Position numbers and translations under genes: made by a program | Notes under the pieces: generated by a model | What the model saw: the letters and a program-made list of their open reading frames with translations, nothing else | Told to the model about the DNA's origin: nothing | Databases searched by the model: none | Shown: one piece after another, positions 4,253 to 31,885 of the stretch | How positions within the stretch are numbered: position 1 is the first letter of the stretch | How the letters are laid out: each line of letters opens with the position of its first letter | Assembly: GCA_902794895.1 (NCBI GenBank) | Contig: CADBIY010000017.1 | Span: 16,323 to 48,877 of the forward strand | Source: Candidatus Avelusimicrobium vaccinum | GTDB lineage: Bacteria > Elusimicrobiota > Elusimicrobia > Elusimicrobiales > Elusimicrobiaceae | Direction of reading: 5' to 3' | Length of the DNA stretch: 32,555 nt

Positions 4253-5507
4253 GGGACATCCTTTTTTCAAACGATATGCAGGCAATTACGGCTATTATTT
4301 GTATACAAACACATAATAAAAAGAAAAATTGCCATTGCCGATATAAATTAACTGCGTTCCCCATTTGATTTAATAAGGCCCATACAATTCCCGCCATGGC
4401 CGGTCCCAAGGCAGCAATTAATTTAGCACAAGAAACTGCCGCAAAAAAAACAGACGAGGATCGTTTCGGAGCTTCTAAGAGAACTGCCCCGTCTAATCCG
4501 GCTTGGATACCGGCCTGTGTAATAAAACTCAAAACAAAGAAAACTCCGCTACATGTCATAACTTGTTTTGGTGTCATCAAGGGGAGGGAAAAAATCAGTC
4601 CGCTTAATAAAATACAGAGTATTGTAAAGGATACTTGGCAAGAACACAGAGAATAAGTTTTCTCATTCATTTTTTTCCACCAAGGGAGAGAAAGCAAAAA
4701 TAAGAATTGTCCAAGCACGGCTAATCCGGTCATCCAAGTTACCGACCACTTACCGATTTGTAATACAAACACAGGCACGAACGTGTTCATAAACAACAAC
4801 GACCCTAAAATCACAATACACACTGTCAAAAACCACTTATAATGCCATACAGTTATTCGTATATATTTAAATGCCGGGATGGGTACCTGACAGGGTTTAG
4901 CACTACCGGGAATATGCCCCAAACAGGCTGTCCCAATAAGTCCACATATACAAGCACAACAGAAGAGAATCGCATAAATCGCACAAGGTACGTTTCCATT
5001 TAAATCACTCCAGTATTTCATGAAAACAAAGGCACTCAAAAAACCGCCAATATGTGCGCCCATAGAAGCCGTATATTTACGTTGAACAAATAAATAAGTT
5101 TGTTTTGCAGGTAATACGGATTTTAACCAAGGATAATAGGATCCCGAAGAAATTCCGCCCGTAAAATAGCATAAAGCAATCACCCATGCTAATCCAATAG
5201 CTGCCCACGAAGCGGAGGGAAAGAAAGCCAATAATGCCCCGAATAAATAAAAAGGTCGGCTCGCATAAGAGAAAATAAGCGTAATTTTTTTTGCATCCAT
5301 TCCTTTGTAAACAAAATAAGCCCCCAGCATACTGGCAGCCGTCCCCATATAAGGAAGAGCCCCTAAACATCCAATCAACCAGGAAGAAGCCCCCAATGCG
5401 AGGGCATAAGCCGTCAGTAATGTTCCGGTGGCTAAGGTATCCATAGCACTTACCCAAGCACTATTGTAAATAAAATAACGTAAAAAAGAAGGCTCTAATC
5501 GCTGCAT
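4239..5507 (-). CDS. MFS transporter, first gene of the sialylation operon
   Basis: A 422-residue protein with about 12 hydrophobic segments, the size and layout of a major facilitator. The first segments (ATGTLLTAYALALGASSWLIG, then a loop with YKGMDAKK after helix 2) and the second half (from about residue 215) fit two six-helix bundles. No subfamily signature is clear to me, so the substrate is unknown; by position it could move a sialic-acid-related sugar or glycan precursor, but that is inference from the operon only. Start ATG 5507 has no ribosome site; an extended -10 lies 6 bases before it, suggesting a leaderless message. Downstream it overlaps the GT80 gene by 14 bases. Confidence 0.75.
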   Translation of the reverse strand: MQRLEPSFLRYFIYNSAWVSAMDTLATGTLLTAYALALGASSWLIGCLGALPYMGTAASMLGAYFVYKGMDAKKITLIFSYASRPFYLFGALLAFFPSASWAAIGLAWVIALCYFTGGISSGSYYPWLKSVLPAKQTYLFVQRKYTASMGAHIGGFLSAFVFMKYWSDLNGNVPCAIYAILFCCACICGLIGTACLGHIPGSAKPCQVPIPAFKYIRITVWHYKWFLTVCIVILGSLLFMNTFVPVFVLQIGKWSVTWMTGLAVLGQFLFLLSLPWWKKMNEKTYSLCSCQVSFTILCILLSGLIFSLPLMTPKQVMTCSGVFFVLSFITQAGIQAGLDGAVLLEAPKRSSSVFFAAVSCAKLIAALGPAMAGIVWALLNQMGNAVNLYRQWQFFFLLCVCIQIIAVIACISFEKRMSHGKI

Positions 5508-10273: not shown

Positions 10274-13200
10274 TTAATCAGCATACGCAGCAAGCACGTC
10301 TCTTAATCTTTGCAAATCACGCATTTCTTCCGGGGTTTCATGTCCTGTAGGAACTAATAGTTCATCAGCCCGTTTTTGCAAAGCACTGCAAATGCTATCC
10401 ATATGGCGGCGTAACTGCGCTGTACGGGCAGCATCTGCCGGATTTGCTTTTTCATAGCGCAACAAATCTTCACGTGCACGGTTAAGATACGTAACAAAGG
10501 CATTCGTGTCAATCGGATTTTTGTGTAACAAGGTAAATGCTAATTGGTCCAACTCACTGACTAGCCAACGTGCGGACTCATATGCATCATATTCTTTAGG
10601 TAACTGATAGGTCCCTTCTTCTATATAGGAAGGCGTCTGTATGGAATTGCCAGCCCCATCGTAAAGATGGTTCTTTAATGCGGCATACTGCCGTTGGAGC
10701 ATAATGGACAAGTCATTATGTTGGTTATTCAAAATAGTTTCATAACTGTGTAGTACTCGGCGCAATTCGTCAAAAGTCGGATTTACGGCTTCCATGCCTA
10801 ATATTTCACTTTCGGCTACTAAACGATTATAAACCGATGTTAATTTGTTGAGCATTGTAGTCATTTTTTGTTCAGAAGTACGGCCATAATCCACAAGTTG
10901 CGTGGCAAGTTCTTTAATTTGTTTTTGACTATCCACTAAACGCAACGAAGCATTTTTTTCGTTGATTCCAAAGGTTTTTGCATGTATTTTGTTGGCTGCA
11001 ATCTTTTCTGCCGTCACTTGGCGGTCACCAAACAAGTTAAAAAAATCAGCCGTTAGTGCGCGGTTTTTCCACGCCAAGATACTCGCAATTGTTGCAGAAT
11101 AGCCAAACAACAAGCGGTTTAATGCTAAGGAGGGGGTAGGAGCATCTAATATATTAGACACCCATTCCAGCATGTCTTTGGTCCATTGCGGGCCATAATC
11201 AGCGAACAAAAATGCACCAGCCGTCGCAGCCCCAATGCCCCATAACCCTCGAGAATTATACAGCGAATAGTCTTTTGAAGCCTGCGCCGACCATACCTGT
11301 TCTTCGGCTTTTAAACGTTGGATTTGCGCATCTTTTTCGGCTTGGGTTAAGGAGGCATCTTCTTCAATTTTTTGTTTACGTGCCCGCATTTCAGCCGTAA
11401 CAATATTTTGCATACGGGCAGCATCTAACTGACCGGGAACGGCTGTTGCCATATAATGTAACACACCGGCAAGTCCGGTTACAAGCGCTAATGCTCCGGA
11501 ATAAGGAGCCAAGGCCAAAGCAGTCCCGGTAGTGGCTAATAGCGGAAGAGAAATACCCGTCAATTGATCATCCGTTACTTTATTTTTCTTGACTAATGAA
11601 GTAGAAATCTTACGTGTAAGGTAAGTGGCTGCCATACATCCGGTAATAAATCCCTGCCCTATTCCGGATCCTAATACTTCGTTAGCGGCTTGTCCTAACA
11701 TCATCAAGCTAGCGGCATAACTGGCATAAACCATTTTTACACGGGAACGAATATCTCTCATTTCTTGCAAATTATTTCTAAAATCTTGATATTCCGTTAC
11801 AAATTGCTTATTATCTTGAGCAAGTTTTTCAGCCAATGCTTGTTGTTCGGCAAGTTTGGCAGCTTGCTCTTCTGGAGATAATGCCGCGAACTCAGCCGCT
11901 TCTTTAGCGGCTTTTTCTTTCGCTAGCAATTTGGCCGTAGTAGCTTCGCGGTACATAGGTGTATTTCTAAATAAAGCATAAGATACCCCTAATAACCCCA
12001 GCCCAATCGGTACTACGGCTGTCCAGTTCATGCCAACTGCGGCTCCTACGGCAGTTAAACCGGTTAACATCAAGCGGGACATTTGCTTATTAGTCGCAAA
12101 ATCAAGGTTAGCAGCGGTACGGGCGGTAGGATCTTTATAAAAATTTAAGAAAGTCGGCACAAATGAATTAGCTAAACTGGCACCAAGTACCAATGCTACC
12201 GTGGGAATAGCTAAACCTAACAGCGGAATTGTTGCCGGATCCACAAAGCCGTTCATGCCCAACCCAAACCAGGAAAATGCCAATGCCGCCCCAGACATCA
12301 AATAAATCAGTTGCGTTGTTTTTACATTGCCCATGCGGGACATTAATGGCATAGCATAGCCGCCGGCAATCGGGGACACATAACCAAAACCGCTCACGAA
12401 GTTGGCTAAGGTATTGGATAATCCTTTAATTTCTTTTAAAGAAGATTTAAAAGGTCCTGTTAAAGAAGCCCCTGCATCATTCCCGACAAATAACGCATGT
12501 GCTTTTAAAAACGGTTTTAAGGAATGAGGTGTATTTAGTTTTAATTCCAAATTTAACTGTGGATTATGTTCCAACATATGTGCCATAGCCAACAAATCCG
12601 TTGTAGAATAAGGGCTATCTACAGTGACACGCACAGAACCGTCTTTTTGAATTTGTTTTAAAATTCTGCTGGAAATAGGATCCGATTCTACCACGGATAA
12701 ATTGCCTTTGGGCATAATTAATTTCCACTGTCCCTGTTCATCTAGGGCTAATACGAATCCTTTCGGAATCGTCATGCCGGGTTGAGTAGCCAAACGTAAT
12801 GTAGAAAGCAGACGTCCATACCAGTTAGCCGGTTCTTGCGACAAAATACCAACCGGCCAGCTGGAAAGTTCTCCTTTAGCATTACGGTAATAGAAAGGAA
12901 TATTATTTTGATAGTAAGAACCGGAGGACGTATCTACATGTGTCATTTTGTTTTCTACAGCAAATCCCTCCGGCCGGAAAGTAGCCACAATACTTTTTTG
13001 GTCTGCCACCGGAACCGTAGGCACTACTCCTGAGAAATTATCTTCCCCGGTAAAAGGCAACACGGCTTCTTCTTCATAAGCGCGCGCCGCTTTGGCACCC
13101 CAATCCGCCTGAGAAACAATTCCTTGTAATTCTGCCAATAAGGACCCTTGTTCAGATACATCCGCAATGCTTTCTAACGTGGTATCAAAGAAATGGGCAT

Positions 13201-14836
13201 CATATAACTTCCAAAGGGCGTTTTCTAAAGTCGCGCCAGTTGTCGCTTGTTCAATCGGAGTACGTACATTGGCCGGTAAATTGGCAATTACATTTTGAAA
13301 AATATTATTTTCATACAACCGCATGAGTGCCTTCTTTTTTAAATCCTTAGAAGCCTCACTAAATAAAATATCACGCAGTTGGGTGATAAGCGGTCTCGGT
13401 TTATTTAATACTAATTCCGCCGAACGATTCGCAGATTGTGCAGAAAAATTTAAAAAACTAGGAAGTAATTTAGATGCATATCGCGAGAAAACAGAAGATG
13501 TTTTCTTGGGAGAGGGGACTGTTTTGCCAGCGGCAGGGGCTGTTTCCGGTACAACACGGGGAGCAGCTGCCATCGAAACAGCGCTTTCGGGAATTGTTGA
13601 TTCCGTCGGTGGCAGGTGAATAGACTCCAGTTGTGATCCGGACAAAGGCACATCTAAATTAGTTGCAGAAGGAGATACTGCCATGCCTTCTGCACTGGGG
13701 GCGTGTGTTAAGGAAGTGCTAGAAGATTGTTGATACGTTTTAACCAAGCCACGCTGTGCCACCCAATCGCGAGTTGTATCCCAATCCATATCTAAATGCA
13801 ACGCATTAAGTTCGCTGGCATTTACTAAAACTTGTTCAATTACCGGATCGGGTGTATGCCCCGTAGTTGACGCAATAGGGGTACCTAAGGTTGAGCCATG
13901 TGTTTCAAAAGAAGTAGATACACCTGCCCAAAACGGACTGGTTAATGCCTCTGCCTTTGTTGTTTGCAACCGGAAGGCCGCTAATTCTTTCACCGCTTCA
14001 TCTGCACCTAGGGCTAATAATGCCCGTCCGGCAATGACATCCGTATAGTTTCCCAAAGATTCCGGCGCGCTTTTAGCTGTTTTTAAAATAAGTTCCACAT
14101 CCGTTTTAATTCCCAACAACCCCAAATTGCTTATGGCCGTCATTTTTTTTGCCCAGGTTAACAATGTCTCATTATACTGACTGATGCGGAGTGGCCGGGT
14201 CGGATAAGTAGTATCCGACAACAAACTTCTATAAAAACGGACTAATTCCAAATGTTCCGGAACTTTAATACTTGCATCTCTTGCCACAATAAATTGAGGA
14301 ATAAATTGAAGAAAAAATTTCTCTTTAAGTAACGCAGGAGTATTCTTATCAAAAACAAAAGAAAACAATTCTGTAATCTGGGATTGGGATAAATTCCCTA
14401 ATACGGACGAATCCAATGATTCAAGAAACAAATTTTGCTGCTTGAGGATCTGCGCAGTAGATGCACCCACTGCCGCAGAAAGATTTTGTTGAATAAGATC
14501 CTGTGTCAGAGGCTGGTTACCAGTGCTTTTACCGACCTGTCTTGAAAGATCCAAATTAATGGGATATTGCTTCACTACCTGTGAGAGAGGTTTACCCGCA
14601 TAAGCAAATACATATCCGGTAGGCAAGGCAGAAAAATTAATATATTTCCAGGGGTTTAAGGTAATTTCATGATTGGCGGCAATTTTACTGATCCGCCCTG
14701 CATTGCGTGCAGCAAGCCCGGCATGCTCGGATGCACTCATAGAATTTTGTATCAAACGGCCAAGTTGGGCATAAGAAGGAGAAATGCTACAAAATACAAT
14801 TGAAAAACTAAGAAGAATAGATAGTAGTTGCCTCAT
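10274..14836 (-). CDS. Very large secreted protein with internal multi-helix membrane-like core, function unknown
   Basis: 1520 residues; I recognise no family. Residues 1-23 are a signal peptide (MRQLLSILLSFSIVFCSISPSYA). Residues about 25-370 are helical and HEAT-like in character; about 380-445 is a Ser/Pro/Ala-rich linker; about 810-960 and 1015-1260 contain a dozen hydrophobic stretches rich in Gly and Ala (for example TTQLIYLMSGAALAFSWFGL, ALVTGLAGVLHYMATAVPG) that look like an MFS-type helix bundle interrupted by two charged coiled coils (about 965-1012 and 1145-1180); the last 260 residues are helical and soluble. ATG 14836 is chosen over 14845 and 14884 because AGGGG lies 9 bases before it and it begins the signal peptide. 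It has its own promoter and terminator. A cell-surface or periplasm-facing structural role is only a guess. Confidence 0.8.
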   Translation of the reverse strand: MRQLLSILLSFSIVFCSISPSYAQLGRLIQNSMSASEHAGLAARNAGRISKIAANHEITLNPWKYINFSALPTGYVFAYAGKPLSQVVKQYPINLDLSRQVGKSTGNQPLTQDLIQQNLSAAVGASTAQILKQQNLFLESLDSSVLGNLSQSQITELFSFVFDKNTPALLKEKFFLQFIPQFIVARDASIKVPEHLELVRFYRSLLSDTTYPTRPLRISQYNETLLTWAKKMTAISNLGLLGIKTDVELILKTAKSAPESLGNYTDVIAGRALLALGADEAVKELAAFRLQTTKAEALTSPFWAGVSTSFETHGSTLGTPIASTTGHTPDPVIEQVLVNASELNALHLDMDWDTTRDWVAQRGLVKTYQQSSSTSLTHAPSAEGMAVSPSATNLDVPLSGSQLESIHLPPTESTIPESAVSMAAAPRVVPETAPAAGKTVPSPKKTSSVFSRYASKLLPSFLNFSAQSANRSAELVLNKPRPLITQLRDILFSEASKDLKKKALMRLYENNIFQNVIANLPANVRTPIEQATTGATLENALWKLYDAHFFDTTLESIADVSEQGSLLAELQGIVSQADWGAKAARAYEEEAVLPFTGEDNFSGVVPTVPVADQKSIVATFRPEGFAVENKMTHVDTSSGSYYQNNIPFYYRNAKGELSSWPVGILSQEPANWYGRLLSTLRLATQPGMTIPKGFVLALDEQGQWKLIMPKGNLSVVESDPISSRILKQIQKDGSVRVTVDSPYSTTDLLAMAHMLEHNPQLNLELKLNTPHSLKPFLKAHALFVGNDAGASLTGPFKSSLKEIKGLSNTLANFVSGFGYVSPIAGGYAMPLMSRMGNVKTTQLIYLMSGAALAFSWFGLGMNGFVDPATIPLLGLAIPTVALVLGASLANSFVPTFLNFYKDPTARTAANLDFATNKQMSRLMLTGLTAVGAAVGMNWTAVVPIGLGLLGVSYALFRNTPMYREATTAKLLAKEKAAKEAAEFAALSPEEQAAKLAEQQALAEKLAQDNKQFVTEYQDFRNNLQEMRDIRSRVKMVYASYAASLMMLGQAANEVLGSGIGQGFITGCMAATYLTRKISTSLVKKNKVTDDQLTGISLPLLATTGTALALAPYSGALALVTGLAGVLHYMATAVPGQLDAARMQNIVTAEMRARKQKIEEDASLTQAEKDAQIQRLKAEEQVWSAQASKDYSLYNSRGLWGIGAATAGAFLFADYGPQWTKDMLEWVSNILDAPTPSLALNRLLFGYSATIASILAWKNRALTADFFNLFGDRQVTAEKIAANKIHAKTFGINEKNASLRLVDSQKQIKELATQLVDYGRTSEQKMTTMLNKLTSVYNRLVAESEILGMEAVNPTFDELRRVLHSYETILNNQHNDLSIMLQRQYAALKNHLYDGAGNSIQTPSYIEEGTYQLPKEYDAYESARWLVSELDQLAFTLLHKNPIDTNAFVTYLNRAREDLLRYEKANPADAARTAQLRRHMDSICSALQKRADELLVPTGHETPEEMRDLQRLRDVLAAYAD

Positions 14837-14874: not shown

Positions 14875-14920
14875 ATCTTAACACGTAAATTCTGAAATAA
14901 CAAGGGTCAAAGGTCCTATA
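14875..14920 (-). promoter_or_regulatory. Promoter of the large secreted protein with upstream TATAGGA-N5-GACCC motif
   Basis: Minus strand: TATAGGA (14920-14914), CCTTT, GACCC (14908-14904) directly abutting a -35 TTGTTA (14903-14898), a 17-base spacer and a -10 TAAGAT (14880-14875). The same arrangement precedes the secreted protein gene at 30833. The position, touching the -35, fits an activator or alternative-sigma element. Confidence 0.6.
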
Positions 14921-14941
14921 CGAAAAATAGGACTTTTAGAA

Positions 14942-16078
14942 TTACCAGTCCGCATCTTTACCAAGAGAGGATGTGGGCAATTTGTTTCCAAAAGTAAACG
15001 AACGCGGTATTTCATGAACCGTTACTTGGTGTTCGTTCAAAAAACTTCTTAATTCTTCCACAGAGGGGGGGATTACATCCGGTTTGGGAACCAGGAAGGC
15101 TTTTAAACGGTCTCCTTCTTCGGGGCGCATTAAGCGCACACGGCATTGTTCAATTGCCGGATGTGTCATTAAGATTTTTTCTATGTGTTTTGGATAAACG
15201 TTAATTCCGGCTATCTGAACACACGCATCACGACGTTCCAATGGGAAAATAAAACGCTCCTCCTCTACTTGCACTTTATCGGGTAACGATTGCCATTCCG
15301 CACCATTTTTCCGTTTAATAAAAGGCATTCCTTCACGCATTTTAACTTCCCAAAACGGTAAAATTTCAAAAGGCCGATACGGTAAATTTCGCCAGGCCAT
15401 TGCTCCCGTTTCGCTGGAACCGTAAATTTCGGTAAAGTGTGTGGCTCCTGCTTTTAGAAGGGATTCTATAATTTCATTTTTACAAGGAGCCGTAGAAGAT
15501 AATAAATGCATTTCAGGGAGAAATGTTTCATTGCAACGCAACCAATAACTCCAAAATAAAGGAAATCCTACTAATAAATCTCCCGGTTGGAGTAATTTAT
15601 CCCACGATTGTGTCGGTAATGCAGGTAAATTAATCACCGGAACCTGTAAAATATGAGGCAATGCCACCGTAAATGTAAATCCGTATAAATGGTTAGCAGG
15701 AACAAACGAAACAATTCGCCGTACTTCCTTAAATAAAAAAGCCACCCCGCGCGCTTCTTCCCAAATCATTTCCTGGGTATGTATGCAAATTTTTGGAGTT
15801 CCTGTACTCCCCGAAGTTAAAAAAGCAACCTGTTTGGTTTTTAAGTAAGATGCATACGCATAATCCGTCATCAACTCTAACGAAGAAAATGCTAACGGAG
15901 TATAGCCAAACATGGTGCCGGCTTTAAGTATCGCCGAATGTAAAATATCTGCCGGAATATTGCTCCATAAATTTTCAGCCGGACTATCAAACACGGCCAA
16001 TGCATCTTTTTGATGCCGGGCCATTTCCGTACGGAAAAGATCAGTAATCATCCGTTTAATATCATTACGGTTTAACAT
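14942..16078 (-). CDS. AMP-ligase (acyl/aryl-CoA synthetase-like), ApeH-like
   Basis: A 378-residue member of the ANL adenylating family, short as in aryl-polyene loci. It would adenylate an aryl carboxylic acid and load it on an acyl carrier protein to prime polyene synthesis. Seen: the P-loop FLTSGSTGTPK (86-96), YGSSETG (219-225), ERRDACVQIAGINVYPKHIE (281-300, the hinge Asp284 region) and a C-terminal LPTSSLGK with Lys374 at the place of the catalytic A10 lysine. ATG 16078 is used because GGAGG lies 9 bases upstream; it overlaps the preceding gene by 14 bases. Last gene of the minus-strand operon. The substrate (a hydroxybenzoate- or coumarate-like acid) is inferred from the pathway. Confidence 0.8.
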   Translation of the reverse strand: MLNRNDIKRMITDLFRTEMARHQKDALAVFDSPAENLWSNIPADILHSAILKAGTMFGYTPLAFSSLELMTDYAYASYLKTKQVAFLTSGSTGTPKICIHTQEMIWEEARGVAFLFKEVRRIVSFVPANHLYGFTFTVALPHILQVPVINLPALPTQSWDKLLQPGDLLVGFPLFWSYWLRCNETFLPEMHLLSSTAPCKNEIIESLLKAGATHFTEIYGSSETGAMAWRNLPYRPFEILPFWEVKMREGMPFIKRKNGAEWQSLPDKVQVEEERFIFPLERRDACVQIAGINVYPKHIEKILMTHPAIEQCRVRLMRPEEGDRLKAFLVPKPDVIPPSVEELRSFLNEHQVTVHEIPRSFTFGNKLPTSSLGKDADW

Positions 16079-16838
16079 AAGGGGTGGCCTCCAAGTTAAA
16101 TTGGGTATCACAAAAAATATCCTGTAAACTAAACGTTTCGTTTGTTTTTAATAAATCAACCAATTGTTGTGCAAAACAGATCGGACGGGGAGTTGTATTC
16201 ATCTTTTTTTCCCGTCGCATACATACAGATTTAATTTGATACGGCCTTGCTCCTTGGGGATGACGTCCAAGCACCAATGCGGCAGAAAAACGCTCAAAAG
16301 GGCCTTGCACATTACGTAATAACGGACGAAATAAATCCATATGTTTAGGAGCATAATCTGCCGCCACTGGATTTACCTCATCCGCAACAGCCACTACTAT
16401 TTGCTCGCAACACCCCTTTTGTAAAAAAGAAACGGCCGTCATTATCGCCGCTGGGAAAGAAGATTCGAATTGCCCAATAGTCACACAGGGCCCTTGAATA
16501 TTTAAATGCATGGACAAAGCAAGCCCGGTTGAATTATGGACTGATCCGGCAAATGCCGTTGGAGAAGATAATTCATCTCCATCCTCAAAAATACTATCCA
16601 TAAATTTACAAGTATTTTCCAATGATCCTGCCCCGGCTGCAATACATAACCCCATATTTTTAGGTTCTTGTACAGACAGGCCGGCCTGTTCCAACGCCTG
16701 AAATGAACAGAATAATGTATTTTTGACGATTTTTTCCATGCGGCGTAAACGGCGCAGTTCTATATAGGGGCTAAACCATTCGGCAGGAACGTCCCCTGTA
16801 AAAGAAGAAAAACCGTTGATATATAGATTAGTGTCCAT
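16065..16838 (-). CDS. Ketosynthase-like partner without the active-site Cys, ApeC/chain-length-factor-like
   Basis: 257 residues covering only the N-terminal half of a beta-ketoacyl synthase (Ketoacyl-synt_2 type). The segment NIQGPCVTIGQFESSFPAAI (113-132) aligns with the nucleophile elbow of ketosynthases, but Glu125 stands where the catalytic Cys should be, and no second-half His motifs exist. In aryl-polyene systems such proteins (ApeC) pair with the ketosynthase ApeO and act as chain-length factor. The gene overlaps the ketosynthase gene in front of it by 11 bases, which supports stoichiometric pairing. ATG 16838 has GGAG 10 bases upstream. Confidence 0.75.
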   Translation of the reverse strand: MDTNLYINGFSSFTGDVPAEWFSPYIELRRLRRMEKIVKNTLFCSFQALEQAGLSVQEPKNMGLCIAAGAGSLENTCKFMDSIFEDGDELSSPTAFAGSVHNSTGLALSMHLNIQGPCVTIGQFESSFPAAIMTAVSFLQKGCCEQIVVAVADEVNPVAADYAPKHMDLFRPLLRNVQGPFERFSAALVLGRHPQGARPYQIKSVCMRREKKMNTTPRPICFAQQLVDLLKTNETFSLQDIFCDTQFNLEATPYVKP

Positions 16839-18030
16839 AATCTTGCGCTCCGATAATAAGGGCCGCATTGCACCCACCAAAAGCCAGCGAGGTAGATATT
16901 GCTGCGCGTTTATGAATCTTCAGTTTATTTTGGGTAGGAGAAAAACCAATTTGTTCATCCATTTCCGCAAATCCCCAAGTAGGCGGCACTACTTGATGAT
17001 TTAAGGCTTCCAGCGTTAATACCGCTTCCACCGCACCGGCAGCCCCCAGGGTGTGCCCGGTAACGCCTTTAGATCCCCAAACGGGGAGGGCCGGAAGTAT
17101 TTCCTTAAAAGCGCATGCTTCAGCAGCATCATTGGCCGGACTAGCAGTTCCGTGTGCATTACAAAAAGCAAGATCGGTTGCCGAAAGGTTTCCTTCCTGT
17201 AATGCAAAAGAAATTGCTTGTTTGAGGCCTTTGGCTTGCGGATCGGGTGCAGTAGGGTGATAAGCATCACATGAATTACCGTAGCCTAATACGTATCCTT
17301 TCGGCGTTAAATTCAGTTCTTTAGCCAATGCTTGGCTAGTTAACAACATAGCGGCAGCACCTTCTCCGATATTGATTCCGTTACGATTTTTATCAAAAGG
17401 CTTACACTTTTCTTTAGAAGCAATTAACAAACGAATAAATCCATCATAAGGGATCAAATTCATCTCATCCGTTCCGCCGCATAAAACAGCATCACACCAT
17501 CCTTGCCGGATCCAACTATCAGCCAACCCAATAGCATCTGTTCCACTGGCACAGGCCGTTACAATGGTTTGAAAAGGGCCGCTAAACCCGAAATAGCGGC
17601 TCACTGCCTGAGCCGTTGCGGAAGCAAAATAATGGGATAATTCGACAATATCCTGGGGTGATGTATTATGATTGCGCCAGTTTTTATATACATTTAAACA
17701 GTGAAAAGAGGCATCTACAGAGGTGCCTACAATAACTCCAACCTTTTTGTCTGTTAATTGGGCAGGTTCAAGACCGGCTTGCGCAAAGGATTCTTTAGCA
17801 GCCGTAAGAAAAAAATGCAAACTTAAACTTTGATCTTTTGGACAGGATAATACTACTGCCGGATCGACCAAAAAAACCGGGTAACCAGAAGTATATGCAC
17901 TTTCCACTCGATGCTTAGGCAACAAAAAACGGGCACATCCATTCAGTGCGCCCTCATAGCAGGTTACGGAAGTGTTGCCGCTGGCACATATACACCCATG
18001 TCCGGCAATCCAACTGGCGGGCTGTTTCAT
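16828..18030 (-). CDS. Beta-ketoacyl-ACP synthase, ApeO-like
   Basis: A 400-residue FabF-type condensing enzyme with the full catalytic set: Cys160 in VTACASG, His293 in NAHGTASPAND and His326 in GVTGHTLGAAG. It would elongate the ACP-bound chain by decarboxylative condensation with malonyl-ACP. It starts directly at the stop of the acyl carrier protein gene (TAA then ATG, no gap) and overlaps the Cys-less partner by 11 bases, so ACP, ketosynthase and partner form one cassette. ApeO versus ApeR assignment rests on this adjacency, not on residue evidence. Confidence 0.88.
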   Translation of the reverse strand: MKQPASWIAGHGCICASGNTSVTCYEGALNGCARFLLPKHRVESAYTSGYPVFLVDPAVVLSCPKDQSLSLHFFLTAAKESFAQAGLEPAQLTDKKVGVIVGTSVDASFHCLNVYKNWRNHNTSPQDIVELSHYFASATAQAVSRYFGFSGPFQTIVTACASGTDAIGLADSWIRQGWCDAVLCGGTDEMNLIPYDGFIRLLIASKEKCKPFDKNRNGINIGEGAAAMLLTSQALAKELNLTPKGYVLGYGNSCDAYHPTAPDPQAKGLKQAISFALQEGNLSATDLAFCNAHGTASPANDAAEACAFKEILPALPVWGSKGVTGHTLGAAGAVEAVLTLEALNHQVVPPTWGFAEMDEQIGFSPTQNKLKIHKRAAISTSLAFGGCNAALIIGAQDYGH

Positions 18031-18291
18031 TTATTTTTTGCGGTTTTTAATAATATAATCGGCCAAAGTTCCTAAATTTTTAAAAATTTCCCGGCCTTGC
18101 TGCATATTTTCAATGGTAATACCATATTTTTTTTGCAACAGCATGATCAATTCTACCGCATCCAGACTATCTAAACCAAGACCCTGGTCCCCAAAAATAG
18201 CATCTTCCGGTCCGAATTTAGACAAATCAGCACCCCCTAAATCAATACCGGAAGAGATCATCTCTTTAATTTCTTCGACAGTTTGTTGCAT
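18031..18291 (-). CDS. Acyl carrier protein, ApeE/ApeF-like (first of two)
   Basis: An 86-residue acyl carrier protein. GLGLDSLDAVEL (38-49) holds Ser42, the phosphopantetheine attachment site. ATG 18291 is chosen over 18312 because GGAG lies 8 bases upstream and it gives the normal length. The gene overlaps the acyltransferase gene by 26 bases and its stop touches the ketosynthase start. It is rich in acidic residues as expected. Confidence 0.9.
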   Translation of the reverse strand: MQQTVEEIKEMISSGIDLGGADLSKFGPEDAIFGDQGLGLDSLDAVELIMLLQKKYGITIENMQQGREIFKNLGTLADYIIKNRKK

Positions 18292-19189
18292 TTTCTTCGC
18301 TCCATAAGTCAAAATAGTTAAAAAACTGATACGGATATTGTATACAAAAATCGGCTAATTCGTCCATGAATTGTTGGGCATAAGGAAGATATTTTTCTTT
18401 CTGATTGCCGCCATCCGGGATACGTAATACCGCAGCCGTTTTAGAAGCAAACATGCCACGCTTCAACCAAGGGAAAAACAGAATAACAATCGGTGCTCCG
18501 GTGATAGCCGCGATTCGGTAAAAACTGTACGGAACAGACACTTTCCCTTTAAAAAAATGTACGGAAAGTGCGTTCTTTTCAGGCCCAAACATACGATCAC
18601 CCATCGCACAGAGGACTTCCCCGCGTTGTAACGCATTCATCATTTCCACCGTTCCGCCTAACGGTCCGGCCGGGTTAATAAAATCAAAGGGGGCTTGTTG
18701 TCCGGTATGCTGGGAGACGGTTTTATCATAATCTTTTGGATTGCGGTAATACAAAACATGCTTTTTGCCGGGTAAAAATTGCATTAAATTTACCGCCATT
18801 TGCCAACACCCCACATGGGCGGAAAGTAAAATAAGTCCTTTTTGTTCAGACAGTAGTTTGCGGCATAATTCGCGTTCTTCTTCCGTAGAAGTAACCGCCG
18901 TTGCCCCCAAAATCCCAAGTGCCGCACGATCCACGAGCGTGCGTGCAAAAGTTAAATTAAGCAGATAAGTGTGTTTAAAAAAATCAGTAAAACAGCGGGG
19001 GGAAAAACGGCGTATTACATAGGATTGGGACTTTTTGCGTACCGAAGGGAAACAAGTATATACAAAAACGAGCGGATACAAAAATACATAAGCCAACCCA
19101 CGGCCGCCTATAAAAATAAGGCCGTAGATAAACGCATGTTTCCATTTACCGGCCAAACTGCGACCGGTTTCTTCTTTATGATTGCGCAT
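18266..19189 (-). CDS. LpxL/HtrB-like lipid acyltransferase, equivalent to the acyltransferase half of ApeJ
   Basis: 307 residues, LPLAT superfamily of the lipid A late acyltransferase type, probably inner-membrane associated (hydrophobic stretch about 20-46). It may transfer the polyene acyl chain to a lipid or sugar acceptor. The HX4E/D motif region reads SAHVGCWQ (123-130): His125 is present but Gln130 stands where Glu or Asp is usual. FINPAGPLGG and GDRMFGPE follow later. In enterobacterial aryl-polyene loci this domain is fused behind a GT2 domain; here it is a separate gene overlapping the GT2 gene by 14 bases. Other members of this branch may share the Gln, so inactivity cannot be assumed. 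Confidence 0.75.
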   Translation of the reverse strand: MRNHKEETGRSLAGKWKHAFIYGLIFIGGRGLAYVFLYPLVFVYTCFPSVRKKSQSYVIRRFSPRCFTDFFKHTYLLNLTFARTLVDRAALGILGATAVTSTEEERELCRKLLSEQKGLILLSAHVGCWQMAVNLMQFLPGKKHVLYYRNPKDYDKTVSQHTGQQAPFDFINPAGPLGGTVEMMNALQRGEVLCAMGDRMFGPEKNALSVHFFKGKVSVPYSFYRIAAITGAPIVILFFPWLKRGMFASKTAAVLRIPDGGNQKEKYLPYAQQFMDELADFCIQYPYQFFNYFDLWSEENATNCRRN

Positions 19190-20321
19190 GCAACCCCCGG
19201 GTGATTATTTTACCGATTAGCCACACGAAACAAAATGTTAGCGCCGCTAAGCAGGGAGCAAGCACAAAGGAACCTAATATCCACTCCCATACACGGCTTA
19301 AGAACTGACGTCCTAAAGTAGTTAAATTAAATTCCGTTAAAAAATAGCCATGACGTATAAAAAAACCCGTTTCTATACATAATGCCGGGATAATAGGACC
19401 TATGCAAAGTTTCTCAAAAGAAATGACTAATAACCGATTTAAATCAAACCACCCTGCACCTATAAAAAGCATGACTTGGCGAATCCCGGGCAGCGCAATA
19501 CTTCCACAGAAAATACCCCATGCGGCAGAACATGCATTTTTAGAAGCACTATTTGGTTTTTTAAGATTTTCAATCATCACTTCCCAATAGCCGCGTTTTT
19601 CTATTTTTCTTCCCTTGCCTGCATATTGACGGTGCGGAACGGGTAACATTGAACGGATCGTGAGATAAGTATTCAGGACCGTTAAACGTAAATTATCTTT
19701 TAAAACGCTAAAATGGGAAATTCTATTTTTGGGATACACAACTGAAATTTCTTTTTCCCGCACCTCAAATCCGGCCCATAAGGCTTTCACGACAACTTCC
19801 ACTTCAAACGCATACCGTTTGCACCACAAGGGTAAGGCGAGTAATATATTGACCGGATAGACACGGTACCCGCTTTGAATATCTTGTATGGCTTTACCCG
19901 TTTGCAGATGCACCCAAAAACTACCAAAAGCACGCCCAAAACGGGAAGATAACGGAACGGTTTCTTTATTAAATTTACGTTTCCCAATAATAATTGCCTG
20001 TGAGCAGGAACGCGATAATCGCTCCAGTGCGGGATAATCCTGATGCCGGTGTTGTCCGTCTGCATCTATCGTGACTAAATGCGTAAAACCGTGCGCTTTG
20101 GCCCAACGGGCGGCATCTAACAAAACAGCCCCTTTTCCTCTATTCTTTTTAAACCGAACCAATGTCACGGGCAGACCGGAAAGTTGAATTTCCGGGGATA
20201 CCGCACTTCCATCGTCAAATACGGCTACCTGTGGATTTTTTTTCAAACAACCCTCTGCTACGCGGCGTAAAGTACCGTTATGATTATAGTGGGGAATGAT
20301 AATTACAAATTTCATACTCAT
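19176..20321 (-). CDS. GT2 glycosyltransferase with C-terminal DUF2062-like membrane domain
   Basis: 381 residues. The N-terminal GT2 domain has VIIIPHYNHNGTLRRV (6-21), FDDGS (35-39), KNRGKGAVLLDAARWA (59-74) and TIDADGQH (84-91), with the DXD motif in DAD; the acceptor loop QSGYRVYP follows. From about residue 265 to the end there are three to four hydrophobic segments resembling DUF2062 (WGIFCGSIALPGIRQVMLFIG and after). It would glycosylate a lipid or polyene carrier at the inner membrane, the ApeJ N-terminal role. ATG 20321 forms an ATGA overlap with the thioesterase stop; ATG 20315 is an alternative two codons in. Confidence 0.8.
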   Translation of the reverse strand: MSMKFVIIIPHYNHNGTLRRVAEGCLKKNPQVAVFDDGSAVSPEIQLSGLPVTLVRFKKNRGKGAVLLDAARWAKAHGFTHLVTIDADGQHRHQDYPALERLSRSCSQAIIIGKRKFNKETVPLSSRFGRAFGSFWVHLQTGKAIQDIQSGYRVYPVNILLALPLWCKRYAFEVEVVVKALWAGFEVREKEISVVYPKNRISHFSVLKDNLRLTVLNTYLTIRSMLPVPHRQYAGKGRKIEKRGYWEVMIENLKKPNSASKNACSAAWGIFCGSIALPGIRQVMLFIGAGWFDLNRLLVISFEKLCIGPIIPALCIETGFFIRHGYFLTEFNLTTLGRQFLSRVWEWILGSFVLAPCLAALTFCFVWLIGKIITRGLHAQS

Positions 20322-20785
20322 TTTTTTAAAGTTCCGGCCCGCCAACTGGCTAAAAACTGTTGCGTAAATTTAGGCCATTCAAACAGTAAATTATTATTTT
20401 TATCCACCATCAATTGAACACTATACCCGCGTGCCATCACGTTTTGATTGGAATCCAGTATCGTAAAATCATAATTCAGACGGGCCGCTTCGCTATAAAA
20501 AAGCCGTGCGCGAATTTCATAGGTAGAAGGATAGGTAAGAGAGGCTAAATAATCAACATGGAATTTACGAACCGGAATTACAATATTATGGTCATAAAAA
20601 TCTTGATATCCAATGCCCCATTCGTTTCCCAGCGCAACCCGGGCATCTTCTATAAAACTGGCATAGTGCCCGTGCCACATAATCCCCATGGGATCTATTT
20701 CATTAAAACGAACCGTGCGAAAAACAGATTTTTCAAGCGGAGCCGGTTCACCCGGCAAAACGGTAAAATATTCTATCTTTTTCAT
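20318..20785 (-). CDS. Acyl-CoA/ACP thioesterase of the 4HBT hotdog family, ApeK-like
   Basis: 155 residues. The hotdog signature VRFNEIDPMGIMWHGHYASFIEDARV (25-50) carries Asp31 at the position of the catalytic Asp of 4-hydroxybenzoyl-CoA thioesterases, and HGHY in place of the common HxNY. It could release or proof-read ACP-bound polyene chains; the aryl-polyene systems contain such a protein (ApeK). ATGA overlaps at both ends tie it to the dehydratase-like gene before it and the glycosyltransferase gene after it. Confidence 0.82.
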   Translation of the reverse strand: MKKIEYFTVLPGEPAPLEKSVFRTVRFNEIDPMGIMWHGHYASFIEDARVALGNEWGIGYQDFYDHNIVIPVRKFHVDYLASLTYPSTYEIRARLFYSEAARLNYDFTILDSNQNVMARGYSVQLMVDKNNNLLFEWPKFTQQFLASWRAGTLKK

Positions 20786-21135
20786 ACTCTATCTCTTACG
20801 GTAAAAATAAGTTGACTCACTTTTATTTGACTATCGGCAAGCCGTAATTCTGCTAAAATTTTTCTGTCCGGCCGCGAAATAAGCACGACCTCAATGGATT
20901 GCCCGGGCCGAATAGGAGCCATAAATTTACAACGGGAAACAGTATCAATCTCCACCGAACGTTTTAACTGTCGGCTTACAGCATCCGCGCAAAGCCCCAG
21001 TTGGCATACCCCGGGTAATAACGGATTGTCCGGAAAATGACCTTTAAAGACCGGCAAAGCGGAATCAATACGGTAAGTATAGCAATTGTCCTGTGCCTGT
21101 TCAAAACAGGCCGCTAACGATTGTTCTAATAACAT
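20782..21135 (-). CDS. FabZ/FabA-like hotdog protein, ApeI-like
   Basis: 117 residues with the dehydratase signature FKGHFPDNPLLPGVCQLGL (30-48). His33 matches the catalytic His of FabZ. In FabZ the Glu acting with it lies 14 residues later; here that position is Gly47 and no acid replaces it, so catalysis may differ or depend on a partner. It would dehydrate 3-hydroxyacyl-ACP during polyene building. Start ATG 21135 overlaps the lipoprotein stop by 10 bases and the stop overlaps the thioesterase start (ATGA). Confidence 0.75.
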   Translation of the reverse strand: MLLEQSLAACFEQAQDNCYTYRIDSALPVFKGHFPDNPLLPGVCQLGLCADAVSRQLKRSVEIDTVSRCKFMAPIRPGQSIEVVLISRPDRKILAELRLADSQIKVSQLIFTVRDRV

Positions 21136-21545
21136 GCGGATTCTCCTTTTAACTGTGCCCGAAATATAGCATGGGTAGGAGCGTCTTTATATTGAACAGT
21201 TGACGGGGGGCACTTGGAAAAGAAATTTTCCCGTGCAAACCGAACAAACGCTTCTAAAGCAACCGTTGGAAATTGTTCTTGTTTATGGTATACTTCCGCG
21301 TGATGAGGCCAAACTTTCAAATCCGCTAATTTCACGCCAAAAACAGATAAAATAACCATACGGACCGAATCCGCCTCCCGATAGCAAACGGCCGTAAAAT
21401 CTAAATTCCAATTTTCAACACTTCCTGCCCATAACATTGTTTTATCTTGCGGAATTACTCCTTGCGGAGGTTGCCGATAAACTAAAGAGGTTCCCTGGCA
21501 TGCTGTTAAAAAAAGAAGGCACAAAAAGATTTTAAAAGGATGCAT
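21126..21545 (-). CDS. Lipoprotein, DUF3261-like (ApeN-like)
   Basis: 139 residues. ATG 21545 gives signal MHPFKIFLCLLFLTAC with lipobox LTAC and lipidated Cys16; a longer upstream frame is in the exporter gene and lacks a signal. GGAG lies 8 bases before the start, and the start overlaps the exporter stop by one base (TAATG). The mature part (WNLDFTAVCYREADSVRMVILSVFGVKLADL) fits the small envelope lipoprotein found next to the MMPL exporter in aryl-polyene loci, likely an outer-membrane acceptor or adaptor for the exported product. The family name is from context and general likeness. Confidence 0.7.
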   Translation of the reverse strand: MHPFKIFLCLLFLTACQGTSLVYRQPPQGVIPQDKTMLWAGSVENWNLDFTAVCYREADSVRMVILSVFGVKLADLKVWPHHAEVYHKQEQFPTVALEAFVRFARENFFSKCPPSTVQYKDAPTHAIFRAQLKGESACY

Positions 21546-23815
21546 TACTTTTTCTCCAATATAGCAGGTAAAAGATATTGGGCGGACAACATGGCAGATC
21601 CAATGCCTAAAAATGAGGAAATCCCCATCATAAACAAAACACTGTGGCGGGCAAAAATAAGTACGCCAAATCCAGCCAGTGTCGATAAAGCCGCCACCCA
21701 TAAAGCAGCAGGCGCATATGCCGTACGTATTGAAGGGGCCAATTCATGGCGGGTAAGTTGGAAAATCGCATAATCAATACCAAGCCCCATAAGCAGCGGC
21801 AGGAAAATTAATACAAAAAGATTGATCTTTAATTGAAAAATCCAAAAACACGCAAACGTAAATCCCGCCGCAAACAATACGGGAATAAATGCCAGCAATG
21901 CTTTCCTTATACTTCTAAAAATAATAGTTACAGCCGCGAAGTTTAACAAAAATGCCAGTTCCACCACCCACAAAGACTCCTGTTGAATTTGCTTCAGCAG
22001 ATCTTGTTGCAGTTGACTCCCAGCGATAAGTATTGCTCCGAACCGGGTGGCTTGCTGTAATAAGCGGGGGGAATAAGGCACCATATGAGTTACGGCCCAA
22101 TCTCCGTTAGGCAATGAAATAAAAGGGTCATAAATGGAAGAAAAATCGGCGGTGTCTTTCTGGGTTAAGTCCGTTAAAAAGTCTATAAAGGGTTTAAAAG
22201 CCGCAGGCACCATGCCTAATTTTTTGGCTGAAATTTCTAGATCGTTTTGAAGTTTCAAAACGCGGTCTTGGTTCCAAAAATTCCGCCATTGCGCCACTTG
22301 TTTTTCGGCGGTATTTTTAGAAGGAAAAAGCGCATTTACCGCCAAGGGAATACCGGCCTGTTGTTCAAACCGTTCGCTTTGTTCCAAGGCTTCCTCGCGG
22401 GTGCGGCCCTTCACAAATAGCAGTGCCTGTTCCTGGTCACGGCCTTGCAAGGTATTTTGCAATATGTTGTATTGTTGTTTAAAAATGCCCGAAGTTGCGT
22501 TTAAAGAATTTAAATCACTTTCAAAATGAATTTGAAATAATCCAATCACTCCCAAACAAATTACCCCGAAACAAAGACTCCAAGCAAACGGTTTTGAAAT
22601 TTTAGGGGGCAAAGATTTTGAAATGCTATTTTCCGCAATAGGCAGATTTTTCCAATAAACAGGTAAAATGTATAAGGCAATCAGCAAGGATATTAAAAGA
22701 CCTGTAAGGGCAAACACGGCAATTTGGCGAAACACTTCTACCGAAGAAATAAATAAAGATACAAAACAGAGCGCGGATGTTGTAAAAGTACAAAATAAAT
22801 GACGCTTAAGTGGTGGAGTAATGAGTTGCCGTTCTTGTCCGCTGCGTAAAGCAAAAAACACATACACCGCATAATCAACCGATAATCCGGCCACTACACT
22901 TCCAAATCCAAGTGTAATGCCGGAAATTCCATCGAAAATCCAATAAGTTACCCATGCTGCTATGGGAGTAACTGCTAGTGGTAATAAATAAATAAGCAAG
23001 GCTTGTTTCATTCGCAAAAAGGAAATAAAAATGAGGATCAGACTTAGCATTGCCAAAGTTCCTACGATCCATAAATCCCGCTGAATAATTTGTACATTTT
23101 CTGCCGTATACCTTAGCCCGCCTAAAAAGAAAGCCTTAACATCTGCAGGAAGATCCTTGGAAAATTGTTGAAAAAATTGTGTCATTTGACGGGCCGCTGC
23201 AAAATCAGGTATTGCGTTTAATTCATAAATCCCCAGATGCACCCGTCCGGTAGCATCCGTTAAAAATCCGTTTTGATAACGTACCGAAGTTTGAGGATTT
23301 AACAAAGCAAATTTTTGCCCCATTAAATCAATCAAGTGCAGCGGATCGGCCAGCAAAAGCGGTTTTAATACCCAACCTTCTAAAGAAATTAATTTTTTAT
23401 AATTTTCTGCCATCAACCGGTCCACAGCCTCTGCAGACAATTTTGTAAGAGTTTGCTGTTCATCTTTTGCAGTCCACCGGAAAGGAAGTGCCCCCAGCCA
23501 AGCCTGCATTCGATCTAACGAAGGTTGAAAGCCGGGCTTAATTAAATGTTGGTCCAATAAAGATTGTTGTAACCCACGGGCATAGTCCAGTGAGGAATTT
23601 TCATCTGGCCCTTGAACAATAACAAATACTTTTCGGTTGAGTGGGGATTTTTGGAATAAATATATCTGTTCCCGGAGTGCAAATGGAACTAATCCGTTTA
23701 TATTTTCTTGCGGTTTAATATGTAACAATTTCCAGCTGCTTGCGACCATCGCAAAAATTAATAAACCGGTAAAAAGAATATTTAAAATTCGTCGATTATT
23801 CCCTGCTAATTTCAT
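21545..23815 (-). CDS. RND-superfamily (MMPL) exporter, ApeM-like
   Basis: 756 residues with the duplicated RND layout: an N-terminal helix (about 10-30), a periplasmic domain, six helices with GLSVDY (310-315), then the same again with a helix near 408-428, a second periplasmic domain and helices with GLGIDY (677-682). The GxxxDY motifs carry the proton-relay Asp. It would move the polyene lipid across or out of the inner membrane toward the periplasm, with the LolA-like and lipoprotein partners encoded on either side. ATG 23815 forms an ATGA with the LolA-like gene, and the stop forms TAATG with the lipoprotein gene. Confidence 0.88.
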   Translation of the reverse strand: MKLAGNNRRILNILFTGLLIFAMVASSWKLLHIKPQENINGLVPFALREQIYLFQKSPLNRKVFVIVQGPDENSSLDYARGLQQSLLDQHLIKPGFQPSLDRMQAWLGALPFRWTAKDEQQTLTKLSAEAVDRLMAENYKKLISLEGWVLKPLLLADPLHLIDLMGQKFALLNPQTSVRYQNGFLTDATGRVHLGIYELNAIPDFAAARQMTQFFQQFSKDLPADVKAFFLGGLRYTAENVQIIQRDLWIVGTLAMLSLILIFISFLRMKQALLIYLLPLAVTPIAAWVTYWIFDGISGITLGFGSVVAGLSVDYAVYVFFALRSGQERQLITPPLKRHLFCTFTTSALCFVSLFISSVEVFRQIAVFALTGLLISLLIALYILPVYWKNLPIAENSISKSLPPKISKPFAWSLCFGVICLGVIGLFQIHFESDLNSLNATSGIFKQQYNILQNTLQGRDQEQALLFVKGRTREEALEQSERFEQQAGIPLAVNALFPSKNTAEKQVAQWRNFWNQDRVLKLQNDLEISAKKLGMVPAAFKPFIDFLTDLTQKDTADFSSIYDPFISLPNGDWAVTHMVPYSPRLLQQATRFGAILIAGSQLQQDLLKQIQQESLWVVELAFLLNFAAVTIIFRSIRKALLAFIPVLFAAGFTFACFWIFQLKINLFVLIFLPLLMGLGIDYAIFQLTRHELAPSIRTAYAPAALWVAALSTLAGFGVLIFARHSVLFMMGISSFLGIGSAMLSAQYLLPAILEKK

Positions 23816-24414
23816 TGAAAAAGTTCCTTTTTCAGCGGTTGGTTAATTTGCGGATTTAAAAATCGGAGTAACGTATAATCTCCTCCAGGTTCATCCAAAC
23901 GTATCTTTTCCAATGCTTGTGGATTTTCGGTCGAAAACCAAGCGGTGATTTTTTGGAGTACCGTTATTTTTCCTTTCGGATATAGCATAACCCCTCTCTC
24001 AAAATATTCCACTTCATAGTTTTTTGATAATTCAGTCAAATCAAAAGATAACCACATCATCATCTGGGCCGCAATATGGGAAGACATGGCATTCTTCACA
24101 GGTTTTTTAATTCCTTCTTCCAAACGAAATGTTTTTCCTTCGCTCATTAAAAAACCATTTTGAAACGGTTCCGTATATTCCCAACGGATTTTGGCAGGAT
24201 CTTTGGAAAAAGCAAAATATCCCGCACTGGTTACCGGCTGTTCCAATAAACTCATATGTTTTTCTTGGGTAAACGAAGCGGAAAGCGTTTGAACAGACGC
24301 GAAACGTTGTTGAATTTCTTGTGCTAGGCTATTTTCTTCCGCCGGTTGAAGATCTTGCGCCATAACGCCGACCGAAAATAATAAAAAACAAACCGTAAAA
24401 ATTATTTTTTTCAT
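23812..24414 (-). CDS. LolA-like periplasmic carrier, ApeL-like
   Basis: 200 residues. ATG 24414 starts a signal peptide (MKKIIFTVCFLLFSVGVMAQ) and forms ATGA with the preceding stop; the longer frame to 24489 has no such feature. The mature domain shows the LolA pattern: FASVQTLSASFTQEKHM, AGYFAFSKDPAKIRWEYTEPF, NGFLMSEGKTFRLEE and later the LRFLNPQIN strand, a half-barrel that binds a lipid tail. It probably ferries the polyene lipid through the periplasm from the MMPL exporter. It is a dedicated paralogue rather than the housekeeping LolA because of the operon. Confidence 0.85.
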   Translation of the reverse strand: MKKIIFTVCFLLFSVGVMAQDLQPAEENSLAQEIQQRFASVQTLSASFTQEKHMSLLEQPVTSAGYFAFSKDPAKIRWEYTEPFQNGFLMSEGKTFRLEEGIKKPVKNAMSSHIAAQMMMWLSFDLTELSKNYEVEYFERGVMLYPKGKITVLQKITAWFSTENPQALEKIRLDEPGGDYTLLRFLNPQINQPLKKELFQ

Positions 24415-25958: not shown

Positions 25959-26224
25959 TATTTTCCGGCTTCGTGCTCGCGGGCCAATTTTTCAATAAAA
26001 TCGTACAAGTCGTTTAAGGTTACAATCGAACGGATATCGTATCCTTGGCGTAACGTCATACCGAATTTTTGTTCTAACACAACCACCATATCAACGGCAT
26101 CCAAACTGTCTAAACCGACATCTTGTTGCAAGTGGGCCGTGGGAACCAACTGGTCGTCAGTTAATTCAAATTCTTTTTTCAGTGCTTCATTAGTTAAACG
26201 GATAATTTCTTCTCTTGTAATCAC
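25958..26224 (-). CDS. Acyl carrier protein (second of two), GTG start
   Basis: 88 residues with VGLDSLDAVDMV (36-47), Ser40 being the phosphopantetheine site. The start codon is GTG at 26224, forming GTGA with the ketosynthase stop, with AGGAG 7 bases upstream. It differs clearly from the other ACP of the operon in sequence, so the two probably serve different steps (for instance starter loading and elongation). Confidence 0.9.
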   Translation of the reverse strand: MITREEIIRLTNEALKKEFELTDDQLVPTAHLQQDVGLDSLDAVDMVVVLEQKFGMTLRQGYDIRSIVTLNDLYDFIEKLAREHEAGK

Positions 26225-27441: not shown

Positions 27442-27447
27442 ACATTC

Positions 27448-30733: not shown

Positions 30734-30757
30734 ATATAGGCCCTTTTCCGAACTTAA

Positions 30758-30803
30758 TATAGGAAAAAAGACCCATGCAACTTTTTTATAAAATAGGTAT
30801 ATT
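30758..30803 (+). promoter_or_regulatory. Promoter with TATAGGA-N5-GACCC motif before the secreted protein gene
   Basis: TATAGGA (30758-30764), AAAAA, GACCC (30770-30774) directly abutting a weak -35 ATGCAA (30775-30780), a 17-base spacer and -10 TATATT (30798-30803). A further TATAGG-CCCTTT half-like copy begins at 30735. The layout equals that upstream of the 1520-residue protein. Confidence 0.6.
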
Positions 30804-30832: not shown

Positions 30833-31885
30833 ATGAAACGATTAATGTTATGTTTGGTCTGTCTTTGTTTGGTGCTTTGTCTTTCCACTCCCATCCATGC
30901 TATGGATTTCTTTCAAGATCCGGATACAGGGACTTTATTTGTAGAAAGTAATTCTTGTCAAGATATGTACCGGCTATCACAAGTCTTTGGAGATAAAACA
31001 AATGAAGATGTTCTGCCAAACGGACCGAGTCAAGCACACGCTGTTTTGCCAACGTTCCATGAACAAAATTTTCAATATGCACAGGAAAAATTAATTGCCT
31101 TCGTTCGCGATATGAACTGGAAAACCGGCCTTCATTTAACTTTACGGGATGCATCCTTTTTTCAACGTCTCAAAATGATTTGTAGCGGCGTAAACACCTA
31201 CACCAAACCGTTCCGCCTGCAACTTAGCATTCATGATCCGCAAGCGGACGAACATCTAGCACAACTAGAGAATGCGGCGATTGATGCCTTGCAAGAAAAA
31301 GTTACCGATGCAACCTTTCACAAGGTAGCCAAACTATCTATCCGCGGACTTCATACGGCTATCATTACAAATAAACCTTTCTTATTATTATTAATTGATG
31401 AAGATACTTATCATCAACTAGTTGAAATCGATCCGGTCATTCAAGACCTAGCTGATAACTTATACAAGTTCTTTGCGTATCGTGCCGTTTATATGGACGA
31501 AGAATATAACCAGAACACGAAAGCCTTAATTAAAGTCTCTAAAATCGGCGATGAAGATGCTGTTCAAACTTGGGCGATCATGGCTACTTTTGCTGAAAAA
31601 ATGTATTTGTTGGATCAAGAACACCAATTAAATCCGGATCAGGAATCACACAACCATATTTGGCGCTTACGTGCGACCTTATCTAAAATTAAAAGACACG
31701 TGGAAATTGAAAAACGCGCCGCCACTCTTGCTTTGGAACAAAATCCAAGCTATAGAAAATGGTTGAACGAGCAAAATAATACAAATCGCAAAAAACCTAC
31801 CTTAGATCAAGAAGCGGTTATGATGTTAAAATCGTTGACTGAAAAACAAATTCGCGATTTAATTGAAAAATATAAAGGAAAATAA
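30833..31885 (+). CDS. Secreted protein of unknown function
   Basis: 350 residues; not recognised. Signal peptide MKRLMLCLVCLCLVLCLSTPIHA, then a mature helical protein rich in charged residues, without repeats or obvious catalytic motif. A central stretch ITNKPFLLLLIDEDTYHQL and a long charged C-terminal helix (KRHVEIEKRAATLALEQ) are visible. ATG 30833 has GAGG 5 bases upstream; a GTG two codons earlier overlaps that site. It is a single gene with its own promoter and terminator. The promoter motif it shares with the 1520-residue protein gene suggests common regulation. Confidence 0.75.
   Translation: MKRLMLCLVCLCLVLCLSTPIHAMDFFQDPDTGTLFVESNSCQDMYRLSQVFGDKTNEDVLPNGPSQAHAVLPTFHEQNFQYAQEKLIAFVRDMNWKTGLHLTLRDASFFQRLKMICSGVNTYTKPFRLQLSIHDPQADEHLAQLENAAIDALQEKVTDATFHKVAKLSIRGLHTAIITNKPFLLLLIDEDTYHQLVEIDPVIQDLADNLYKFFAYRAVYMDEEYNQNTKALIKVSKIGDEDAVQTWAIMATFAEKMYLLDQEHQLNPDQESHNHIWRLRATLSKIKRHVEIEKRAATLALEQNPSYRKWLNEQNNTNRKKPTLDQEAVMMLKSLTEKQIRDLIEKYKGK

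Follow-up and report, generated by a model that had tools for sequence, protein, structure and literature searches.

A fixed-phase promoter box ahead of exported-protein genes in the class Elusimicrobia and its candidate response regulator

The window examined here, meaning the whole stretch of 32,555 nucleotides (nt) under analysis, is part of contig C17 (CADBIY010000017.1) of Candidatus Avelusimicrobium vaccinum, whose genome is 1.45 Mb and 98.9% complete. Two genes within it, one on each strand, are preceded by promoters that carry the same short element, hereafter called the box (Table 1). An initial annotation had proposed that one motif stands in the same phase to both promoters and that such agreement is unlikely to be fortuitous, and both statements hold. 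Site 1 (TATAGGACCTTTGACCCTTG, window 14901-14920, minus strand) and site 2 (TATAGGAAAAAAGACCCATG, window 30758-30777, plus strand) match the proposed pattern exactly and were located to the nucleotide. Their promoters, TTGTTA-N17-TAAGAT (minus) and ATGCAA-N17-TATATT (plus), share the 17-bp spacer and are identical in phase. When up to two mismatches are allowed, these remain the only matches in the window, compared to an expectation of 0.02 from shuffled sequences. Similarly, a profile scan of the window (R1) recovered only sites 1 and 2.

Table 1. Promoter elements and predicted target genes in the window
Feature	Position	Strand	Evidence
Proximal box, site 1 (TAGGACCTTTGACCCTTG); terminal TTG is the start of the -35	14901..14918	-	R1 match 24.5 bits, E=1e-6 in window
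-35 hexamer TTGTTA, overlapping the box end	14898..14903	-	Sequence; position in genus-wide base counts
-10 hexamer TAAGAT, 38 nt from the box first base, 17-bp spacer	14875..14880	-	Sequence; base counts, 64 sites
Distal box half GTCCTA, inverted, 9-nt spacer (TAGGAC on +)	14928..14933	-	Sequence; inverted halves elsewhere; fold
Predicted controlled gene 1: 1520 residues, N-terminal signal peptide, without Pfam or NCBIfam match	10274..14836	-	
Proximal box, site 2 (TAGGAAAAAAGACCCATG), inner left half degenerate	30760..30777	+	R1 match 19.8 bits, E=3.3e-5 in window
-35 region ATGCAA, overlapping the box end	30775..30780	+	Sequence
-10 hexamer TATATT, 38 nt from the box first base	30798..30803	+	Sequence
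Distal box copy TAGGCCCTTTTCCG, direct orientation, 23 nt upstream	30737..30750	+	Sequence; direct copies elsewhere cluster at 22-24 nt
Predicted controlled gene 2: 350 residues, N-terminal signal peptide, without Pfam or NCBIfam match	30833..31885	+	

The motif was refined by a genome scan at three mismatches, a search with a wider pattern in 61 genomes, and inspection of the contexts of the matches. Base counts from 64 sites, gathered without requiring a -10 element, yield TAGGYCYWWWRGRCCCTTG followed by a TAWAAT peak at +38 to +43, and the consensus reads T-A-G-G-(T/C/A)-C-(T/C)-W-W-N-G-(G/A)-C-C-C-T-T-G with the next base mostly T. The element is thus a dyad, TAGGNC-YWWN-GNCCC(T/A)TG, with the core GGNC-N4-GNCC and a center at about -42. 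Counted from its first base, the box occupies positions 0-14, the TTG of the -35 positions 15-17, and TAWAAT positions 38-43, such that the -10 lies exactly 38 nt from the box start. The free five-base gap of the original pattern did not survive this comparison, since the middle of the motif genome-wide is C-Y-W-W-N and site 2 happens to be degenerate there. The motif had also been described as touching the -35. Its right half does abut that hexamer, but only the TTG of the -35 is conserved and the remainder is variable. Sequence between and around the boxes is not conserved.

Many promoters carry more than one box. An inverted half-box lies upstream at a spacer of 8-9 nt in 71 of 135 sites, and 75 of the 135 have an inverted half within a spacer range of 4-12 nt, versus approximately two in shuffled sequences. 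A direct copy of the box begins 22-24 nt upstream in 59 of the 135. The hairpin that had been noted beside site 1 is a real dyad (single-strand fold z = -3.5), and it represents half of a second box that lies upstream in inverted orientation. One locus (L092, in genome G046) carries a near-perfect 38-nt palindrome, GGGCCAAAAGACCTA-N8-TAGGTCTTTTGGCCC, that consists of two opposed boxes, and symmetric control is possible for some promoters.

A profile of 46 positions, built from sites of the window's genus, detects 22 sites in this genome at E<0.02, a count that is not fully independent because some of these sites trained the profile. The exact pattern first put forward fits both window sites but is too narrow, because two of the four exact occurrences of ATAGGAN5GACCC in the genome lack promoter context, whereas the consensus finds approximately 22 sites. 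Placement across the genome is non-random, with a fixed distance to the -10 and a position upstream of genes. With three exceptions, the sites precede open reading frames (ORFs) whose products carry a signal peptide or a hydrophobic anchor at the N terminus; the exceptions are a glycosyltransferase gene (L112), a short ORF that precedes a secreted one (L097), and a contig end (L104). By a simple home-made rule for calling signal peptides, 18 of the 20 readable downstream ORFs are signal-peptide-like, compared to 18 of 83 in a background of other ORFs from this genome (Fisher p=2e-8; both window targets are among this background). One target that fails the rule (L100) nevertheless looks like a signal-peptide protein by eye. 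The early suggestion that both window genes encode secreted proteins therefore extends to the targets in the rest of this genome and, as described below, to nine families. The targets are mostly orphan proteins without a Pfam family. Among twenty that were scanned, the matches were trypsin-like domains in two (one weak), a glutaminase domain, and an M20 peptidase, in addition to weak ankyrin and BAR-like matches. The two trypsin-like members (L106 and L107) would fit a protein-degrading gut lifestyle.

The box is conserved well beyond the genus. Across 147 Elusimicrobia-class genomes, the composite pattern TAGGNCYWWNGNCC-N24-TANNNT matched 770 times, versus 13 times for its reversed control. 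Nine families are positive, and no match occurs in the 21 genomes of families f5, f6, f7, f8, f12, and f13. Families f3 to f15 are independent of the training data, because the profile used only the window's genus and the composite pattern added only two sites from f2. Over all groups, 109 of 125 sites precede signal-peptide-like ORFs; by family, the counts are 18 of 18 in f2, 15 of 16 in f10, 6 of 8 in f9, and 4 of 7 in f3, f4, f11, f14, and f15 pooled. A single-contig genome of 1,643,562 bp (G090) contains 26 profile sites. In 26 of the 109 cases, the distance from the box start to the ATG is 50-51 nt, which places the ATG approximately 7 nt past the -10 and predicts leaderless mRNAs. Many target genes look leaderless by this measure. 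In a genome of family f4 (G166), one box lies before a type IV prepilin-like gene (L276, GFTFVEMMAVLLIMG), which could possibly tie the regulon directly to a pilus.

Given these observations, the box is almost certainly a genuine promoter-linked site for a regulator. Its geometry matches that of class II activator sites, with a position near -41.5 (relative to starts predicted from sequence), an overlap with a weak -35, and a fixed phase to the -10. Judging from this arrangement and from the weakness of the -35, it is very probably the site of an activator.

A search with the GerE family model revealed two NarL/FixJ-type regulators in the genome, called RR-A (L136) and RR-B (L137:6041-6736). 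RR-B combines a receiver domain (Response_reg, E 9e-30) with a LuxR/GerE helix-turn-helix (GerE, E 1.6e-17), and its recognition helix, SVKTIKNHLN, is conserved among RR-B proteins. The closest named relatives of the response regulator from the window's genome are in gut and rumen metagenome-assembled genomes (MAGs) of Elusimicrobium, Elusimicrobiaceae, and Avelusimicrobium. All nine families that carry the box have an RR-B of 59-100% identity; in each of the six that lack the box, the protein is either missing or no more than 53% identical. Within the ingroup, one genome (G093) has a divergent RR-B with N at the position of DosR K179, and has no boxes. Several genomes of families f10 and f14 (such as G164, G178, G181, G190, and G204) encode two copies of RR-B on separate contigs, each approximately 65-72% identical to the query, which suggests a duplicated regulator.

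The box and RR-B can be compared with the mycobacterial regulator DosR/DevR and its sites. The DosR consensus has been described in a stringent form, GGGACTTNNGNCCCT, and a weak form, RRGNCYWNNGNMM (PMC6448022). The box consensus from 64 sites, AGGNCYWWNGNCCCT, fully satisfies the weak form and partly satisfies the stringent form (GGGACT), and the weak form agrees letter by letter with AGGNCYWWNGNCC. A DosR target promoter has paired boxes (PMC2682197), and more than one box per promoter is also seen here. The core DNA-binding residues of DosR are K179, K182, and N183 (PMC5999986), and in our alignment to DosR numbering the RR-B helix has K, K, and N at these positions. The two systems differ in phylum, in their targets, which here are signal-peptide proteins rather than hypoxia or dormancy genes, and in the setting of RR-B, which is linked to a Tad locus and to kinases of the Cache-domain and hybrid types. 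Nor is RR-B an ortholog of DosR, since VraR outscores DevR in a search of the PDB. VraR, from the VraR/LiaR group of the same NarL/FixJ family, is the closest solved full-length structure (E 9e-39), but its helix, KTVKTH, lacks the DosR asparagine, and the site it is known to bind does not resemble the GGNC dyad. No NCBIfam equivalog model reaches its cut-off for RR-B, the best being a MadR-family model at 146.9 bits versus 300. GerE of Bacillus is also reminiscent of this system, with a half-site TRGGY that resembles TAGGY and a helix KTVRNH that resembles KTIKNH, a likeness for which our literature search found no source. GerE functions in sporulation; it has a LuxR-type helix-turn-helix and lacks a receiver domain.

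Various observations weigh against assigning the box to RR-B. The split between families (nine of nine versus none of six) is supporting and not decisive because families are nested in orders, and, because the families without boxes also differ by descent, few independent events underlie the co-occurrence. One genome that is 79% complete (G216) has six box matches, and RR-B was not found in it. Conversely, 9 of the 126 genomes in box-positive families have no strict composite match, and some of these (e.g., G026) retain an unchanged RR-B helix. The helix alone is weak evidence because many members of the NarL family have K-T-x-K-N helices. No box was found before the RR-B operon in this genome, and RR-A and RR-B were the DNA-binding proteins profiled across genomes. 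A search for autoregulation in 80 named RR-B neighborhoods yielded only two box matches, neither of them at RR-B. On balance, RR-B is with good probability the protein that binds the box.

The best surviving alternative, which we consider unlikely, is that the box is an activator site for a protein other than RR-B, either RR-A or an activator that was not profiled, such as a member of the CRP/FNR family. RR-A contains a GerE domain and is conserved at the family level, and class II activators in general typically have a dyad near -42; the 5-N4-5 arrangement would also fit the class II geometry of CRP/FNR. Against the latter, the half-site GGNC is unlike those of CRP (TGTGA) and FNR (TTGAT). 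RR-A was considered first, as a genome without it (G013) seemed to be boxless, and was rejected once the profile found seven boxes there. Furthermore, in a search of order-level relatives, f1 was the only family with close RR-A orthologs (>55%), while the box spans the class, and group g15 has RR-A at 70% and no boxes. Another conserved motif (TAGTAAAA...AAACTATTGTAAAAT), distinct from the box, stands in the promoter of the kinase/RR-A operon. Upstream of the kinase gene (L136, approximately 4880-4940), this motif takes the form TAGTAAAA-N(5-8)-AAACTAT(A/T)GTAAAAT in most of 20 genomes (L157-L176), and it is possibly an autoregulatory site for RR-A.

It is far less probable that the box is a repressor operator that blocks the -35, with the genes induced upon release. 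The overlap with the TTG of the -35 would permit this, but the promoters look activator-dependent because the -35 is not conserved beyond the TTG and site 2 has ATGCAA in its place. Activation would also better explain why the distance to the -10 is fixed at 38 nt and why additional boxes lie upstream. Finally, the notion that the element is a dispersed repeat, a terminator, or an RNA hairpin can be set aside with near certainty: inverted box pairs can fold as hairpins, and some genomes have near-perfect inverted pairs, but the element is not in the mRNA because it lies upstream of the -10, its surroundings are not conserved, many distal copies are direct repeats that form no hairpin, Rfam has no match to it, and no terminator was called at the site 1 dyad.

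RR-B, the probable activator, is encoded in a Tad pilus/secretion locus, and the core of this Tad-kinase operon is conserved across the class. Upstream are genes for a TadA-type ATPase, two T2SSF proteins (TadB/C), and then TPR and sensor-like proteins, followed by a Cache-HAMP histidine kinase, a receiver-histidine kinase hybrid, RR-B itself, and TadG/TadE-like proteins. The order kinase-hybrid-RR-B, often with TadE, is retained in 8 of 11 distant RR-B loci tested; the other three (L404, L406, and L407), from groundwater Elusimicrobia, have no Tad or kinase neighbors. Two of the loci, L407 without the kinase operon and L410 with it, belong to one MAG.

In the mechanism proposed here, a dimer would bind the dyad AGGNC-YWWN-GNCCC at about -42, beside the weak -35 (TTGnnn), where it would contact RNA polymerase as occurs in class II activated promoters, often with a second dimer approximately 23-24 bp upstream. 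The Cache-domain histidine kinase and the hybrid kinase would lead to phosphorylation of RR-B, and phosphorylated RR-B would then switch on the genes for secreted proteins together. Taken as a whole, it is likely that the box belongs to a transcription activator with a class-wide regulon of secreted proteins, for which RR-B is the foremost candidate. One attractive speculation is that RR-B phosphorylation, and with it the output of exported proteins, is set by an extracellular ligand or by the Tad machine's state. A broader proposal, which we advance tentatively and with some doubt, is that a phosphorelay within the Tad locus might serve as a class-wide master switch for the secretome, in which RR-B would turn on lineage-variable exported proteins, many from leaderless mRNAs, and thereby couple a surface machine to its cargo.

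Other features of the window can be noted. The protein encoded by gene 1 has central hydrophobic helices, and a search of viral contigs with the gene 2 protein as the query gave no matches. Between the two sites lies a long fatty-acid-like cluster (window 14942-28456, minus strand) that resembles an aryl polyene pathway, with genes for ketosynthases, acyl carrier proteins, dehydratase/thioesterase-like proteins, an acyltransferase, a LolA-like protein, and an MMPL-type exporter. The profile scan of the window found no box in the genes of this cluster.

Nothing relevant emerged from the literature searched on a motif or regulon published for Elusimicrobia, or on a regulator linked to Tad. The type of operator and the family of the regulator are already known; as far as this literature shows, there is no earlier description of a DosR-type box from Elusimicrobia or of a regulon whose defining feature is secretion. 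How genes are regulated in Elusimicrobiota has hardly been studied, and metagenomes are the only source of knowledge for most of its members. In species from gut, rumen, and groundwater, a fixed-phase box offers a readable tag for a large set of exported proteins whose functions are unknown; it also points to one testable regulator. Moreover, the marked promoters predict start sites, including those of probable leaderless mRNAs, in organisms that lack transcriptomes. Overall, the findings point to a DosR-type operator in Elusimicrobia that appears to be wired to the secretome, and perhaps to the Tad locus as well.
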